From an uncultured Erysipelotrichaceae bacterium (GTDB lineage Bacteria > Bacillota_I > Bacilli_A > RF39 > UBA660), in NCBI GenBank assembly GCA_902783895.1, contig CACZST010000014.1:1-36683 (forward strand): 36,683 nucleotides of DNA, in the 5' to 3' direction. How positions within the stretch are numbered: position 1 is the stretch's first letter; the number at the start of each line of letters is the position of its first letter. A program made the translations under genes and the position numbers. Below are positions 2,306 to 34,645 of the stretch, in pieces. A model generated the notes under the pieces. It worked only from the letters and a program-made list of their open reading frames with translations. It did no database searches and was not told the DNA's origin.

Positions 2306-3424
2306 ATGAAAAAATTAATTTTAATATCAACAATATTTCTTTTAAGTATACCTTTTTATACAGTAAAAGCAATGGAAAAAACAGCAGATATACTAAAGAA
2401 AAATGTAGTGACATCTGGTGATGGTTTATATGTAGATTCAACTATTGATGGAAGATATATTTATAGGGGTGCAAATCCAAATAATTATATTAAATTAGGT
2501 GATGATTTATATAGAATAATATCTATTGAAAAAGATGGAACAATAAAAGTGATTAAACAAGATAGTATTGGGAGTATGGCATTTGATACGCAAGATGCTA
2601 GACATTCCACAAATAGTGCGGATTTTTGTACAAGTCCATATGGTTGTAAGGCCTGGGGAAGTAATACAACAACCTTAGATTCAAAGGGTAACAACGTAAC
2701 CCAAATGCCATCTGAGATAGGTGGAAATCTTTATAACTTACCAGATAAAGAAGCGCCTATTAATATATACTTAAATAATGTTTTTTATAGTAATTTAAAT
2801 GATGATGTTAAAGAATTAATGGTGGAAAAAACATGGAATGTTGGGTTAATTGCAGATAATCAAACAAATTTATCCGAAAGTATAAAAGAAGAAGAAGCAT
2901 ATAAGTGGAAAGGAAAAGTAGCACTTATGAATGCGACAGATTATGTTAAATCATCAATAAATAGTGCATGCATAGATGTAAATGCATATAATAATGATTC
3001 ATCATGTTATGAAAATAGTGAGGTTCATAATTATTTGTATTCAAGTAATTATCCATTGACTCTTCAACCTGGTTCTGATCGAGATGCGTGCGCCGTGTTT
3101 AATGTGAACATCCGTGGTAGCATGAACGGAGGCAGCGCGAGCTATAGTGGCTACGGGGTCCGTCCTGCGCTCTATCTGTCAGCTAAAACTACATTAAACG
3201 GAGAAGGAAGTGAAACAAACCCATATACTATATCTAAGTATATAGAAGAACCAAAAGATGAAGAAAATAAAAGTGAAGTAAAAGTAGATAATGGACAAAT
3301 AGTAGAAGTACCATCAACATCGGCATTTGGTTCAGTAGTAATAGCTGGTTTAGGACTTGCTTGTGTAATAGGATCAGTATATGTTACAAATAAAGCTACA
3401 AGGAAAAAGAAAAAAAATTTATAA
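2306..3424 (+). CDS. Secreted, anchored surface protein with putative DGR variable region
   Basis: A 372-aa exported protein. Residues 1-22 form a signal peptide ending VKA. The N-terminal domain (about 33-90) includes TSGDGLYVDSTIDGRYIY and YIKLGDDLYRII. The middle has several Cys. The C-terminus has EVPSTSA (334-340), one membrane helix (about 342-362) and a KKKK tail, like a divergent sortase-type anchor. Residues 258-292 are encoded by an unusually GC-rich block (3077-3181) ending GVRPALYLS. This is the position and shape of the variable repeat in DGR-diversified C-type-lectin-like or DUF6273-like gut proteins. A paralogue lies at 33524-34645 and lacks the GC-rich block. The gene has its own promoter and sits where pyrH-frr usually lie. 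The family function is probably adhesion or ligand binding; this is inferred. Confidence 0.85.
   Translation: MKKLILISTIFLLSIPFYTVKAMEKTADILKKNVVTSGDGLYVDSTIDGRYIYRGANPNNYIKLGDDLYRIISIEKDGTIKVIKQDSIGSMAFDTQDARHSTNSADFCTSPYGCKAWGSNTTTLDSKGNNVTQMPSEIGGNLYNLPDKEAPINIYLNNVFYSNLNDDVKELMVEKTWNVGLIADNQTNLSESIKEEEAYKWKGKVALMNATDYVKSSINSACIDVNAYNNDSSCYENSEVHNYLYSSNYPLTLQPGSDRDACAVFNVNIRGSMNGGSASYSGYGVRPALYLSAKTTLNGEGSETNPYTISKYIEEPKDEENKSEVKVDNGQIVEVPSTSAFGSVVIAGLGLACVIGSVYVTNKATRKKKKNL
3077..3181 (+). repeat. Candidate DGR variable repeat (VR)
   Basis: By hand count, bases 3081-3180 are 58% GC, inside a gene and genome that are strongly AT-rich. Codons such as GCG, GGC, CTG, CTC and CGT cluster here and are scarce elsewhere. 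Most codons could derive from AAC/AAT template codons by A-to-N changes (AGC, GGC, TAC, CGT, ATC, GAT), while non-A bases look fixed. The 3' edge GGGGTCCGTCCTGCG resembles the GC-rich initiation-of-mutagenic-homing edge of gut DGRs. No second copy (template) and no reverse transcriptase occur in the window. Confidence 0.65.
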
Positions 3425-8832: not shown

Positions 8833-8919
8833 GCATGGATGGCGGAATAGGTAGACGCGCTACTTTGAGGGGGTAGTGAAGGAGACTTCGTGCCGGTTCA
8901 AGTCCGGTTTCATGCACCA
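8833..8919 (+). tRNA. tRNA-Leu (anticodon GAG)
   Basis: A complete 87-nt class II tRNA with encoded CCA. The acceptor stem GCATGGA pairs with TTTCATGC. The anticodon stem CTACT/GGTAG encloses TTGAGGG, with anticodon GAG reading CUC/CUU. The long variable arm and the GGTTCAAGTCC T-arm are clear. It sits 12 nt after the rhodanese gene and is probably processed from the same transcript. Confidence 0.96.
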
Positions 8920-8932
8920 AATATGTAATAAA

Positions 8933-8970
8933 AAGGCAATTGCTTTAGGCAATTGTCTTATAATTTTTTT
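8933..8970. terminator. Terminator between tRNA-Leu and the converging ClpX-like gene
   Basis: A 10-bp stem (8933-8942 with 8950-8959, one G-T pair) is followed on the plus strand by ATAATTTTTTT. On the minus strand it overlaps the end of the ClpX-like gene and is followed by T-rich sequence, so it can serve both directions. Confidence 0.8.
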
Positions 8971-9455
8971 GTTAAAACATATGGTTTATTATTTTCATCA
9001 GGTTTTACTAAAGATATACTTTTATATTCTCCAGCAAAAATTCTAAATAGGGCACTACTGATACATTCATCAAAGACTGTTTTTAAACTTCGGGCACCAC
9101 TTTGTTTTTCCATGGCAAGTGTAGCGATGTAATCGATAAATTCATCATTAAATTTAAAGTCTATTACTAATATTTCGAATAATTTTTTGTAAGTATTTAA
9201 TGGACTAAAATCTGATTCTTTTAATATTTTTATGATATCTTCTTTTTGTAGTGGATTCATAGGAATAGTTTTTGAAAATCTTCCAATTAATTCTTTCATA
9301 ATTCCATATTTTATAAAATCTTCAGTATTTAATTTTTGATAATTATCAGTATTTGTTATTCCAGTAAAGGCGCCTAAACCAACTATTGTTAATTTTGATG
9401 TATCAAATTTTTTACCATTAAAATAGAAAACAGTACCATCAAGTAGTTTTAACAA
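8958..9455 (-). CDS. ClpX-like AAA+ ATPase, C-terminal part after an in-frame stop
   Basis: This is the second half of the gene at 9498-10307, in the same frame. Translation through the TAA gives DSQSHVSRIGVQRSLLKLLDG, the usual ClpX segment after Walker B. The part holds sensor 1 (IVGLGAFTGI), the arginine-finger box (ELIGRFSK) and sensor 2 (SGARSLKTVFDE). The insert that carries the ClpP-binding IGF loop in ClpX is missing: about 15 residues separate sensor 1 from the arginine finger. A TTG at 9453-9455 could be a restart, but no ribosome binding site precedes it. It is either the tail of a pseudogene or of a gene whose stop is suppressed or an error. Confidence 0.7.
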   Translation of the reverse strand: MLKLLDGTVFYFNGKKFDTSKLTIVGLGAFTGITNTDNYQKLNTEDFIKYGIMKELIGRFSKTIPMNPLQKEDIIKILKESDFSPLNTYKKLFEILVIDFKFNDEFIDYIATLAMEKQSGARSLKTVFDECISSALFRIFAGEYKSISLVKPDENNKPYVLTKKL

Positions 9456-9497
9456 TGATCTTTGAACACCGATCCTTGAAACGTGGGACTGGCTATC

Positions 9498-10307
9498 TTA
9501 GGATTTTTCAGCAAGTTTATCAAATTCATCAATAACTAATATTCCTTTTTCAGCAAGATTAATATCTCCGTTTGCGGCAAGACATAAATCTTCAAGCATA
9601 TCATTAATTTTTCTTCCTTGATAACCGGTTTCTGAAAGTGATGTAGCATCTTCAATTACTAAGGGTATTTTATAAATTTTTGATATTCTTTTTAGTATTT
9701 CTGTTTTTCCTGTACCGGTTGAACCATAAATTAGTATATTTTCTTTTAATTTAGCAATTAAGTCCATATCTAAATTTGAGTTTACTATTTTTTGATTTTT
9801 AAATAAAGAGGTAAGTATTTGCATTATTTGTTCATCTTGAGATATGATTGTTTTCTTTATTGATGAATACATAGATGATATGTCTGTATTTTTTTCAAAT
9901 TCTTCTTCATCAAAGTCTTTATTTTCATTTTCTAGTTTTTCGATTAATTTTTCATCTGTAAGACATACTACACTCCAATATTCTTTTGATCTTATATAAT
10001 ATTTATGTGTTTTTTCTAATTTATTTTTCCTTATTTTTTTAAAGTTAACATAGTTGCCAATTTCTTCTATTGCTTTATCTAAATCATCTTCCACAAATAC
10101 GTATTCTTCTTCATTTTTTTCTTTGTTTATAAAACTTGCGAGGATATTTGCTTTATTACCAGTTATTATATTACATAGTTTAATTTTTTTAGTGTTGGTG
10201 AAACCAATACCAACTACATAATCAATTAACTCGAAAATTTCATAATTTTTTCTTTTAAAATCTATATATCTTTTTTTGAATAAATATCCAATTGTTAACT
10301 CTGTCAT
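9498..10307 (-). CDS. ClpX-like AAA+ ATPase, N-terminal part
   Basis: 269 aa ending at a TAA just after Walker B. The N-terminal 150 residues are not the ClpX zinc finger and are unrecognised. The AAA+ core starts near 155 with Walker A GSTGTGKT (195-202), a pore loop GYQG (228-231, where ClpX has GYVG) and Walker B ILVIDE (256-261). The 14 codons after the stop continue the ClpX alignment without a shift, so only this one codon separates the two halves. A GGAGGAAT site precedes the ATG. The combined gene of 450 codons would encode an unfoldase-like ATPase, probably ClpP-independent because the IGF loop is absent. Confidence 0.75.
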   Translation of the reverse strand: MTELTIGYLFKKRYIDFKRKNYEIFELIDYVVGIGFTNTKKIKLCNIITGNKANILASFINKEKNEEEYVFVEDDLDKAIEEIGNYVNFKKIRKNKLEKTHKYYIRSKEYWSVVCLTDEKLIEKLENENKDFDEEEFEKNTDISSMYSSIKKTIISQDEQIMQILTSLFKNQKIVNSNLDMDLIAKLKENILIYGSTGTGKTEILKRISKIYKIPLVIEDATSLSETGYQGRKINDMLEDLCLAANGDINLAEKGILVIDEFDKLAEKS

Positions 10308-11717: not shown

Positions 11718-12638
11718 TTATTGATTTGAAGAAGATGATTTCTGTATTGAACAGGACTCATTTTTTTTTAGATTCCATTGATATCTATAATTGTTATAAT
11801 ACTCTATATATCTAGCAATTTCAACTTGTAATTCTTCAAAATTGGAACAAACTTTAAAATCAACTTCATCTTTCATATGTCCAAAAAATGATTCTTGCGG
11901 TGCATTATCCCAACAATTTCCTTTTCTAGACATTGATTGACCTAATTTTAATTCTTTTAACAATGATTGAAAAGTTGGACTTGTATAATGACTTCCTTGA
12001 TCAGAATGTACAAAAGCATCTTCTGGAATAGGGACATTTTTTTGCTTTATTATATCCCACATGGTATCTAAAACAAAATCTAAATATAAATTTGTTGATA
12101 ATCTATATGCCATAATCTCATTTGTAGAAGCATCTTTTATTGTAGATAAATATGCTCTTTTATAATAACCATAAGACAAATAGGTAATATCAGTTAATAA
12201 TACTTTTCCTGGTTTTTCCTGTTTAAATTCACGATTCAATTTATTTTCAATAGTTCTATGTTCTAAATCTTTTTTCAACATCTGCTTATAGGGCTCTGCC
12301 TTTCTAATAGGGCAAATAATATCATATTTTCGCATTATTCTTCTAATATGTTTTAGATTAAAAACAATTTTATCCTCGTTTTCAAGAGTCATCTTAATTC
12401 CTTTTGCACCTTTTTTATATCCGTGTCTTGTAAAAGCATCTAAAATAACGTCTCTATCTTTTTCGTCTTGTATTTCTTTTTTATTTCTATTTTGAATAGA
12501 TTTTTCGCTAAAGTAATTATAATAACCACTTCTAGATACTTCAGCTAAACTACATAAATATTTAACTTGAGCTTTTTCATCATATTTTTTAACAAGTTCT
12601 TTTATAATTTCATAGACCTGACTTGTATAATTTTTCAC
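11718..12638 (-). CDS. IS3-family transposase OrfB (DDE integrase core)
   Basis: Catalytic subunit. An HTH_21-like segment (RRIMRKYDIICPIRK) precedes the rve core. The DDE residues are visible in LLTDITYL, FVHSDQGSHYTS and NAPQESFFGHMKDE, and the C-terminal YIEYYNNYRYQWNLKK is typical. 306 aa is full length. The GTG start overlaps the orfA stop as GTGA. The two frames are in a -1 relation, with A AAG GGG just before the orfA stop (12638-12644), so an OrfAB fusion by frameshifting is possible as well as re-initiation. Confidence 0.93.
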   Translation of the reverse strand: MKNYTSQVYEIIKELVKKYDEKAQVKYLCSLAEVSRSGYYNYFSEKSIQNRNKKEIQDEKDRDVILDAFTRHGYKKGAKGIKMTLENEDKIVFNLKHIRRIMRKYDIICPIRKAEPYKQMLKKDLEHRTIENKLNREFKQEKPGKVLLTDITYLSYGYYKRAYLSTIKDASTNEIMAYRLSTNLYLDFVLDTMWDIIKQKNVPIPEDAFVHSDQGSHYTSPTFQSLLKELKLGQSMSRKGNCWDNAPQESFFGHMKDEVDFKVCSNFEELQVEIARYIEYYNNYRYQWNLKKNESCSIQKSSSSNQ

Positions 12639-13369
12639 CCCTTTCTTAAGGCCGAAACTTTTTTTAAGTATTCATTTTCCATTTCTAACTGGTTAACTCT
12701 CCTTTGTAAATACTTAATATCTTTTAATTTTTTCTTTTTTTCTTCATTAGTTTCTTTATGTATAGGATGGTAGTTATTTTTACTAAAAGATGGATCATGG
12801 GAAGCTTGTTTTTTCCAATTTCTAGTACATATTTTTATTCTTCTTTTTCCGATTAATAATGGATCTAACCCAAATTCTGAAAATATTTGTAAATTGCCTT
12901 TTCCTTTATTAAATTCCTTTATAAATATGATTTTAAATTCCTTTGTAAAAGTAATTTTATCTTTACTTATAAATTCTATATATTGATTTTGACTAAGTTT
13001 ATTAATTTGTTCATCAGTATAATTTTCTACTAATTTTCCCCCATCAATTGGTATATACTTTATTTTTCCCTTATCATTTAAAACTGGATAAGCACCTTTG
13101 ATTCTAATGGCTTTCCTTTTTCCATTTTCTTCTACTATTTTAAATTCTTTAGACCAATTGTGTTTATTTGCTTTAATTGATGATAATCCTATTTCATCTG
13201 GATTAAAACTACAGTTTTCAAATATTTCTAGAATTCTTTTGCCTTTATTTAAATCTAAAATAACTTTCTTTCTAAATTTCTCTGTATAAATAATATGATC
13301 TTGAGCAAATGTAAGAATATACTTGTTTTCTAATAATTCTTTTTTTCTTTTCTTTGTAAATTTTGGCAT
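12635..13369 (-). CDS. IS3-family OrfA with duplicated helix-turn-helix region
   Basis: DNA-binding subunit of the IS. At 244 aa it is longer than most OrfA proteins (about 90-175 aa). The extra length comes from an internal duplication: about residues 16-72 (ILTFAQDHIIYTEKFRKKVI) and 131-185 (IEFISKDKITFTKEFKIIFI) share the same pattern, each with an HTH-like segment. A leucine zipper (LQRRVNQLEMENEYLKK, about 220-238) for multimerisation ends the protein. An AGGAGG site lies upstream of the ATG. It appears intact. Confidence 0.88.
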   Translation of the reverse strand: MPKFTKKRKKELLENKYILTFAQDHIIYTEKFRKKVILDLNKGKRILEIFENCSFNPDEIGLSSIKANKHNWSKEFKIVEENGKRKAIRIKGAYPVLNDKGKIKYIPIDGGKLVENYTDEQINKLSQNQYIEFISKDKITFTKEFKIIFIKEFNKGKGNLQIFSEFGLDPLLIGKRRIKICTRNWKKQASHDPSFSKNNYHPIHKETNEEKKKKLKDIKYLQRRVNQLEMENEYLKKVSALRKG

Positions 13370-33523: not shown

Positions 33524-34645
33524 ATGAAAAAGTTATTTTTGGTGTTAACGTTAATTATTTTAAGTATATCTTTTTATCCGGTAAAAGCAATGGAGAGGGC
33601 ATGTGATATACTAAAGAAAAATGTGGTAACATCAGGTGACGGTTTATATGTAGATTCAACTATAGACGGAAGATATATTTATAAGGGTGCAAATCCAAAT
33701 AACTATATTAAATTAGGTGATGATTTATATAGAATAATATCGTTAGAAAAGGATGGTACTATAAAAGTTATTAGAATTGAAAAAGCTACAGGATTTTCTA
33801 ATGTCTTTGATGGATATGATAGAAAGTCAACAGGTAGTAGTGATTATTGTACTGGTTCATATGGCTGTAATGCGTGGGGAAGTAATACAACTACACTTGA
33901 TTCAAATGGTAATAAAGTAACGCAGATGTCCAAAGAATTAGGAGGCAGTTTATATAATTTACCGGATAAAGAAGCTAGTTTGAATACATATTTAAATAAT
34001 GATTTTTATAATGGTTTAAGTGATGAAGTAAAGAACTTTATTGTTACAAAAGAATGGAATATTGGACCAACTATAGTTTGGCAAAGTAATTTATTAGATA
34101 GTATAAAAGAGGAGTCATCATATAAATGGAAAGGTAAGGTTGCTTTAATGAATGTAACAGATTATGTTAAGGCTAGTAATAATCCTGAATGCACAACTGT
34201 AAAAGATTATTCTTATTATGGAACTTCATCATGTTATAATAATGCTTCAAAATATACTTATTTATCTTTGGGATCATGGATTATTACATTATCTCCATTA
34301 AGTTCTTATCCTGGTGATGTTATTTATATTCCAAGTTGGATTCAAGATCAGAGAGCAACTACTGGTGGTTCTGTTTACCCAGCATTCTTTTTATCCTCTG
34401 AAACTACATTAAATGGTGAAGGTACACAGACTAATCCATATACAGTTTCAAAATATGTAGAAGAAGTAAAAAGTGAAGAAAATAATGACAATAATGAAGA
34501 AAATAATCAAAATGTAAATAATGGTCAAATAGTAGAAGTACCGTCAACATCAGCTCAAATGTCAATCATAATCGCAAGTATTGGAATCATATTTGTATCT
34601 TTGGCTTTAATAATTACAAAGAAGATGGCTATAACTCATAAATAA
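33524..34645 (+). CDS. Secreted, anchored surface protein, paralogue without the GC-rich block
   Basis: 373 aa, sister of the protein at 2306-3424. The signal peptide ends VKA at about residue 22. The N-terminal domain is nearly identical (LKKNVVTSGDGLYVDSTIDG), as are CNAWGSNTTTLDSNGNKVTQ, YNLPDKEA and YKWKGKVALMN. The region matching the variable block reads LSPLSSYPGDVIYIPSWIQD then VYPAFFLSSETTLNGEG and is AT-rich, so it looks fixed. VPSTSA (339-344), a membrane helix and a Lys/His tail end it. ATG 33524 has AGGAGG 7 nt upstream; an in-frame ATG at 33497 lies in the promoter. Confidence 0.85.
   Translation: MKKLFLVLTLIILSISFYPVKAMERACDILKKNVVTSGDGLYVDSTIDGRYIYKGANPNNYIKLGDDLYRIISLEKDGTIKVIRIEKATGFSNVFDGYDRKSTGSSDYCTGSYGCNAWGSNTTTLDSNGNKVTQMSKELGGSLYNLPDKEASLNTYLNNDFYNGLSDEVKNFIVTKEWNIGPTIVWQSNLLDSIKEESSYKWKGKVALMNVTDYVKASNNPECTTVKDYSYYGTSSCYNNASKYTYLSLGSWIITLSPLSSYPGDVIYIPSWIQDQRATTGGSVYPAFFLSSETTLNGEGTQTNPYTVSKYVEEVKSEENNDNNEENNQNVNNGQIVEVPSTSAQMSIIIASIGIIFVSLALIITKKMAITHK

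Follow-up and report, generated by a model that had tools for sequence, protein, structure and literature searches.

The question raised by this locus is why a gene of an AT-rich genome should carry, in frame and close to its 3' end, a short block much richer in GC than the rest of the gene. The window analyzed (the whole stretch of 36,683 bp) comes from an uncultured member of the Bacilli, represented by a MAG of 1.03 Mb that is 78% complete. It had been predicted that the block is the variable repeat of a DGR, in a surface protein gene that is diversified by a template and a reverse transcriptase (RT) located elsewhere in the genome. Our analysis gives a probability of about 0.87 to the block being a DGR variable repeat in one member of a large, dispersed family of surface-anchored, C-type-lectin-like proteins.

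The GC-rich block and the gene that contains it

The GC content was 27.5% in the window and 31.6% in the target gene (Table 1). The block at 3077-3181 reached 57.1%, practically the 58% claimed beforehand, with a z-score of 5.2 over sliding windows. The 105-mer richest in GC of the whole window (59.0%) starts at 3068, and it is around this point, slightly 5' of the start first noted, that the GC-rich part begins. Outside the block the best 105-mer had 49.5% and corresponded to a tRNA-Leu gene (position 8833). Read in the frame of the gene, the block encodes DRDACAVFNVNIRGSMNGGSASYSGYGVRPALYLS. The paralogue at 33524, described by the original prediction as ordinary AT-rich DNA at the same place, is indeed so. 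The window also contains, on the minus strand, a pair of transposase-like genes, IS3-type by eye (11718-13369), and a ClpX/AAA-like gene apparently split over two reading frames (8958-10307).

Table 1. Features of the target gene and its paralogue in the window
Feature	Position	Strand	Basis
Target gene for a DUF6273 protein of 372 aa with a predicted C-type-lectin-like fold	2306..3424	+	ORF, PF19789, AlphaFold2, fold search
Probable signal peptide, aa 1-22, MKKLILISTIFLLSIPFYTVKA	2306..2371	+	Low pLDDT, read by eye
GC-rich variable repeat of 38 codons (CCT to TCA) with an NNC/NNT codon pattern	3068..3181	+	GC 57-59%, third positions, variability, match to congener template
Conserved 3' end of the repeat, GTCCGTCCTGCGCTCTATCTGTCA	3158..3181	+	Near-identical in L022, L042, L026, L027 and L048
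Candidate anchor of sortase type, made up of VPSTSA, a hydrophobic helix and a basic tail	3308..3421	+	VPSTSA layout kept by most full-length members in this genome
Paralogue lacking the GC-rich repeat (35% GC at the corresponding 34265-34369)	33524..34645	+	Non-A mismatch 51%, no signature left

The window protein matched PF19789 (DUF6273) above the cut-off (E=9.4e-6, 26.0 bits versus 23.5), and the paralogue scored 17.0, below it. AlphaFold2, supplied with 35 relatives, gave a mean pLDDT of 85, with values above 90 across nearly all of residues 31 to 310 approximately. The predicted layout consists of a leader, a domain of some 280 residues modelled with confidence and a C-terminal helix (aa 343-370). 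The repeat occupies codons 255-292 of the 372, i.e., near the 3' end of the gene and inside the confidently modelled domain. The top structural match (Foldseek/VIA) was the N-terminal part of 9qa6, an IgA peptidase of Thomasclavelia ramosa (Z 17.4). The other matches were all at about Z 6 or lower, among them the C-terminal domain of the Legionella Lcl protein (Z 6.1) and the Treponema variable protein 1 (2y3c, Z 5.2), which in Treponema denticola is itself a DGR target. DUF6273 targets of phage DGRs (tentaclins) have been modelled as C-type lectins whose variable repeat sits on a hairpin at the surface (PMC10743442). The C-type-lectin fold is thus predicted from the DUF6273 literature and from modest structural matches, and the variable residues might bind ligands.

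The predicted display at the cell surface agrees with what we found, since the protein looks surface-anchored by a candidate signal of VPSTSA motif, helix and basic tail, in a genome with five sortase genes, one of them adjoining a family member on contig C29. With the NCBIfam sorting-signal model the window protein scored far under the cut-off. The conserved 3' end of the repeat is a candidate equivalent of the homing (IMH-like) end of DGRs, judging from its sequence; at the corresponding position the templates of congeners finish with CTCTCTAAAA.

A dispersed gene family with a codon signature

The genome contains some 30 relatives of the target gene, distributed over more than 20 contigs. 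A codon alignment showed that the family is most variable just ahead of the GVRPALYLS motif. Within the block, C made up 53% and A 3% of the third codon positions in the four members richest in GC, versus 6% and 47%, respectively, outside the block in the same genes, so that the codon bias that had been pointed out at the start holds. Besides, variability in the block at codon positions 1, 2 and 3 was 0.55, 0.46 and 0.36, versus 0.16, 0.14 and 0.28 elsewhere in those genes, where position 3 was the highest. Such a pattern of codon positions in the block is what would be expected if the adenines of AAC and AAT codons were randomised. Variability at third positions is, on the other hand, just as high in the block as outside it (0.36 and 0.28), which would not be expected from a single live template.

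The pattern is not equally preserved in all the copies. At least 11 members, and one fragment at a contig end, retain some of it, deviating from the inferred template at 0 to 35% of the non-A sites. In the remaining ones, among them the paralogue at 33524, the pattern is gone (41-51% deviation). The template of this genome was inferred from the repeats themselves, making these deviation tests partly circular. P-values for individual copies were left out of account as tests, having been picked by their non-A match. L042 fits it at all non-A sites, being among the copies that defined it, and L026 at 89%. The window copy deviates at 19% of the non-A sites, and because of this we think that, although DGR-written, it dates from some time ago or comes from a template other than that of L042; most likely it has not been recently rewritten. 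In the middle group of members the non-A changes are mostly C-to-T and G-to-A.

DGR machinery and remote targets in the same genus

Among the 44 genomes of the genus, 34 had a match to RT and 28 to Avd. More than 30 of the congener RT genes carry the DGR-type motif LPIGNxTSQ together with YMDD. In 15 pairs of template and variable repeat found within one genome near RTs, 226 of 474 template adenines were changed versus 22 of 1156 other bases. DUF6273 was above the cut-off in five of the seven targets scanned, four of them adjoining a DGR core. In G002 the core on contig C2 consists of template, Avd (PF22296, E=1.3e-11) and RT. Of the template adenines, 17/36 differed in its target on contig C20 and 18/36 in that on C39, whereas all 66 other bases were unchanged. 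This shows that remote rewriting occurs in the genus. The Avd of G002 gave no match to PDB sequences in the structure search.

G007 (94% complete) has 13 ungapped repeats on 13 contigs, in which 53% of the inferred A sites were changed versus 3.9% of the others; the template having been inferred from these 13 targets, this is a test of consistency. The template itself was not found in the genome. Two local templates, T116 and T138, match neighbouring targets only.

Does the window repeat resemble any of these systems? The template common to G002 and G004 aligned to positions 3094-3166 with 36 matches over 46 non-A sites (21 for the next-best site of the window), and the repeat differed from it at 14 of 27 adenines and at 10 of 46 other bases (p=0.009). 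Together with the codon pattern, this match supports the DGR signature that had been proposed for the block. We infer that the same process wrote the window copy.

The template-like sequences collected, all rich in Asn codons, comprise about 40 distinct ones. A conserved RNA tail, the stretch that follows the template, is common to about a dozen of the congener templates (L137:4272-4500 and counterparts, CTCTCTAAAACACTATGGGTTATGAACTAATATGGTCATAA...) and is probably the structured part of the DGR RNA. Several template-like sequences have no RT nearby and run on into a target-like gene at its 3' end (L178:1426-1620 on C4 and L179:1423-1620 on C1 of G002, and also L149, L153, L159, L160 and L308). 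In G002 two copies match the RT-adjacent template with 100% identity over 112 bp and are located just downstream of a DUF6273 target. These RT-less copies are perhaps a route for the origin or spread of templates.

The targets of the genus are not of a single kind. A second architecture corresponds to proteins some 960-980 aa long, which carry a membrane segment at the N terminus and the variable repeat at the C terminus (L112, L114, L138, L142, L144 and L145); DUF6273 was not matched in the one tested (L112). In another target (L110:2100-4253, on C31 of G015) the repeat is near the N terminus and precedes an AAA-type ATPase domain, an arrangement that differs from the C-terminal repeats found elsewhere and recalls the conflict-system targets of Thiohalocapsa.

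The search for the DGR core in the genome of the window

The original prediction placed template and RT elsewhere in this genome and proposed looking for a near-identical template beside the enzyme. In the 78%-complete assembly neither was found. The template was searched with the repeat, with the inferred template and with a degenerate pattern (3 mismatches). There was no RT of DGR type and no match to Avd, and the RNA tail of G002 had a best match of 23 bases (E=0.017), i.e., none. The sole RT present (C20:264-734) was rejected as a DGR RT, since it is an AbiP2-type defence RT (L021:3-1337, PADLOC E=1.3e-155), its 5' end cut by the contig end. Beyond the genome, the exact repeat pattern had zero matches in IMG/VR, and comparing the window protein with collections of genomes and viral contigs confirmed nothing, in searches that may leave out near records. 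Considering the completeness of the assembly, and that of the 102 contig ends about a dozen or more fall within the gene family, this absence is no proof, and the core could easily have dropped out. The proposal of a remote DGR target therefore stands in part: the variable repeat is well supported and remote targets exist in congeners, whereas a remote template and RT are unproven here.

Possible origin of the repeats

The mechanism that we propose would start with a DGR RNA whose template, rich in Asn codons, is copied by the DGR reverse transcriptase together with Avd. The template adenines would be randomised in the process, and the cDNA would replace the matching stretch of the target gene, including targets far away from the retroelement. 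With GC-rich bases at the non-adenine sites of the template, each rewritten gene would retain a GC-rich island in an AT-rich genome. The graded loss of template-derived bases most likely reflects repeats written at different times, from more than one template, or both. The core would either have been lost or belong to the fraction of the genome that was not assembled.

The leading option is loss of the DGR from the lineage, the repeats being leftovers that drift in the ordinary way, and we give it an even chance. RT, Avd, template and RNA tail are all absent from the assembly, and the copies are eroded towards AT to different degrees. Besides, there is a precedent in Treponema denticola, in which some isolates retain the target genes after losing RT and template (PMC4891356). 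Against it are the incompleteness of the assembly and the fresh aspect of L042, although this copy helped to define the template.

Second comes a missing contig, with a live DGR diversifying the window gene in trans from a core locus that was not assembled. We regard this as a tentative possibility. A template repeat would break the assembly as the contig ends within the family do, in an assembly that is 78% complete, and the more complete G007 likewise lacks the template of its 13 targets. The fit of L042 and L026 to the inferred template points in the same direction. However, drift at non-A sites affects the window copy and most of the others, and C-to-T and G-to-A changes dominate the middle group. 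Current diversification is unproven, the window repeat deviating at 19% of non-A sites versus roughly 4% in a congener with fresh-looking targets, and we consider current DGR activity on this gene doubtful.

Cassette-type antigenic variation, by recombination or gene conversion among paralogues with no reverse transcription involved, could make use of a large and dispersed family with a conserved 3' flank. But it would shift shared blocks rather than fix third positions while positions 1 and 2 are randomised, and congeners show adenine-specific change with a non-coding template; we find it very improbable. A recent acquisition of GC-rich DNA from another organism, free of targeted mutagenesis, would explain a GC content far over the genome average and can practically be discarded, given at least 11 paralogues with blocks at the same position, a fixed codon pattern and a GC gradient.

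Comparison with known systems and significance

Rewriting by a DGR, with the core either lost or missing from the assembly, has parallels in several known systems. The TvpA family of T. denticola also has dispersed C-type-lectin targets, two to seven per genome (PMC4891356), and target genes left without RT or template. Here there are at least 11, and 13 in the congener G007; the family has DUF6273 and a candidate sortase-type anchor, and belongs to an uncultured bacterium of the Bacilli whose genome is small. Tentaclins are receptor-binding proteins of phages (PMC10743442), whereas this family is chromosomal and located beside housekeeping genes. Multi-target cellular DGRs, some of whose targets are thought to be served in trans, act on antigen-sensor and conflict-system proteins (PMC10907252), and the remote variable proteins of cyanobacteria, with many CLec paralogues and an eroding similarity to the template, are mostly cytosolic and multidomain (PMC7517822); those described here are predicted to be anchored at the surface. 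Remote, multi-target, orphan and DUF6273 targets had all been published, and what we describe is a large new instance in uncultured gut Bacilli. The size of the family is notable. One survey found a single DGR with 91 template-variable pairs, so we claim no record.

Large metagenomic surveys of DGRs sought repeats beside the RT and, by their own statement, would miss remote targets (PMC8144416). The present case indicates that targets can be recognised without the template, by a GC-rich island whose NNC/NNT codon pattern recurs from one paralogue to another. If this is general, many families of DGR targets have yet to be counted, as have the former targets of DGRs now lost. A genus that includes genomes with several DGR loci and up to at least 13 dispersed targets is suitable for measuring how one template serves many genes, and also the rate at which rewritten genes decay once rewriting ends. 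More speculatively, and with the odds rather against it, one or a few DGRs might rewrite in trans dozens of dispersed sortase-anchored lectins, with the copies that have ceased to be rewritten kept as a slowly drifting archive of binding variants. If true, a genome of about 1 Mb would hold a standing repertoire comparable to an antigen-receptor or adhesin library.
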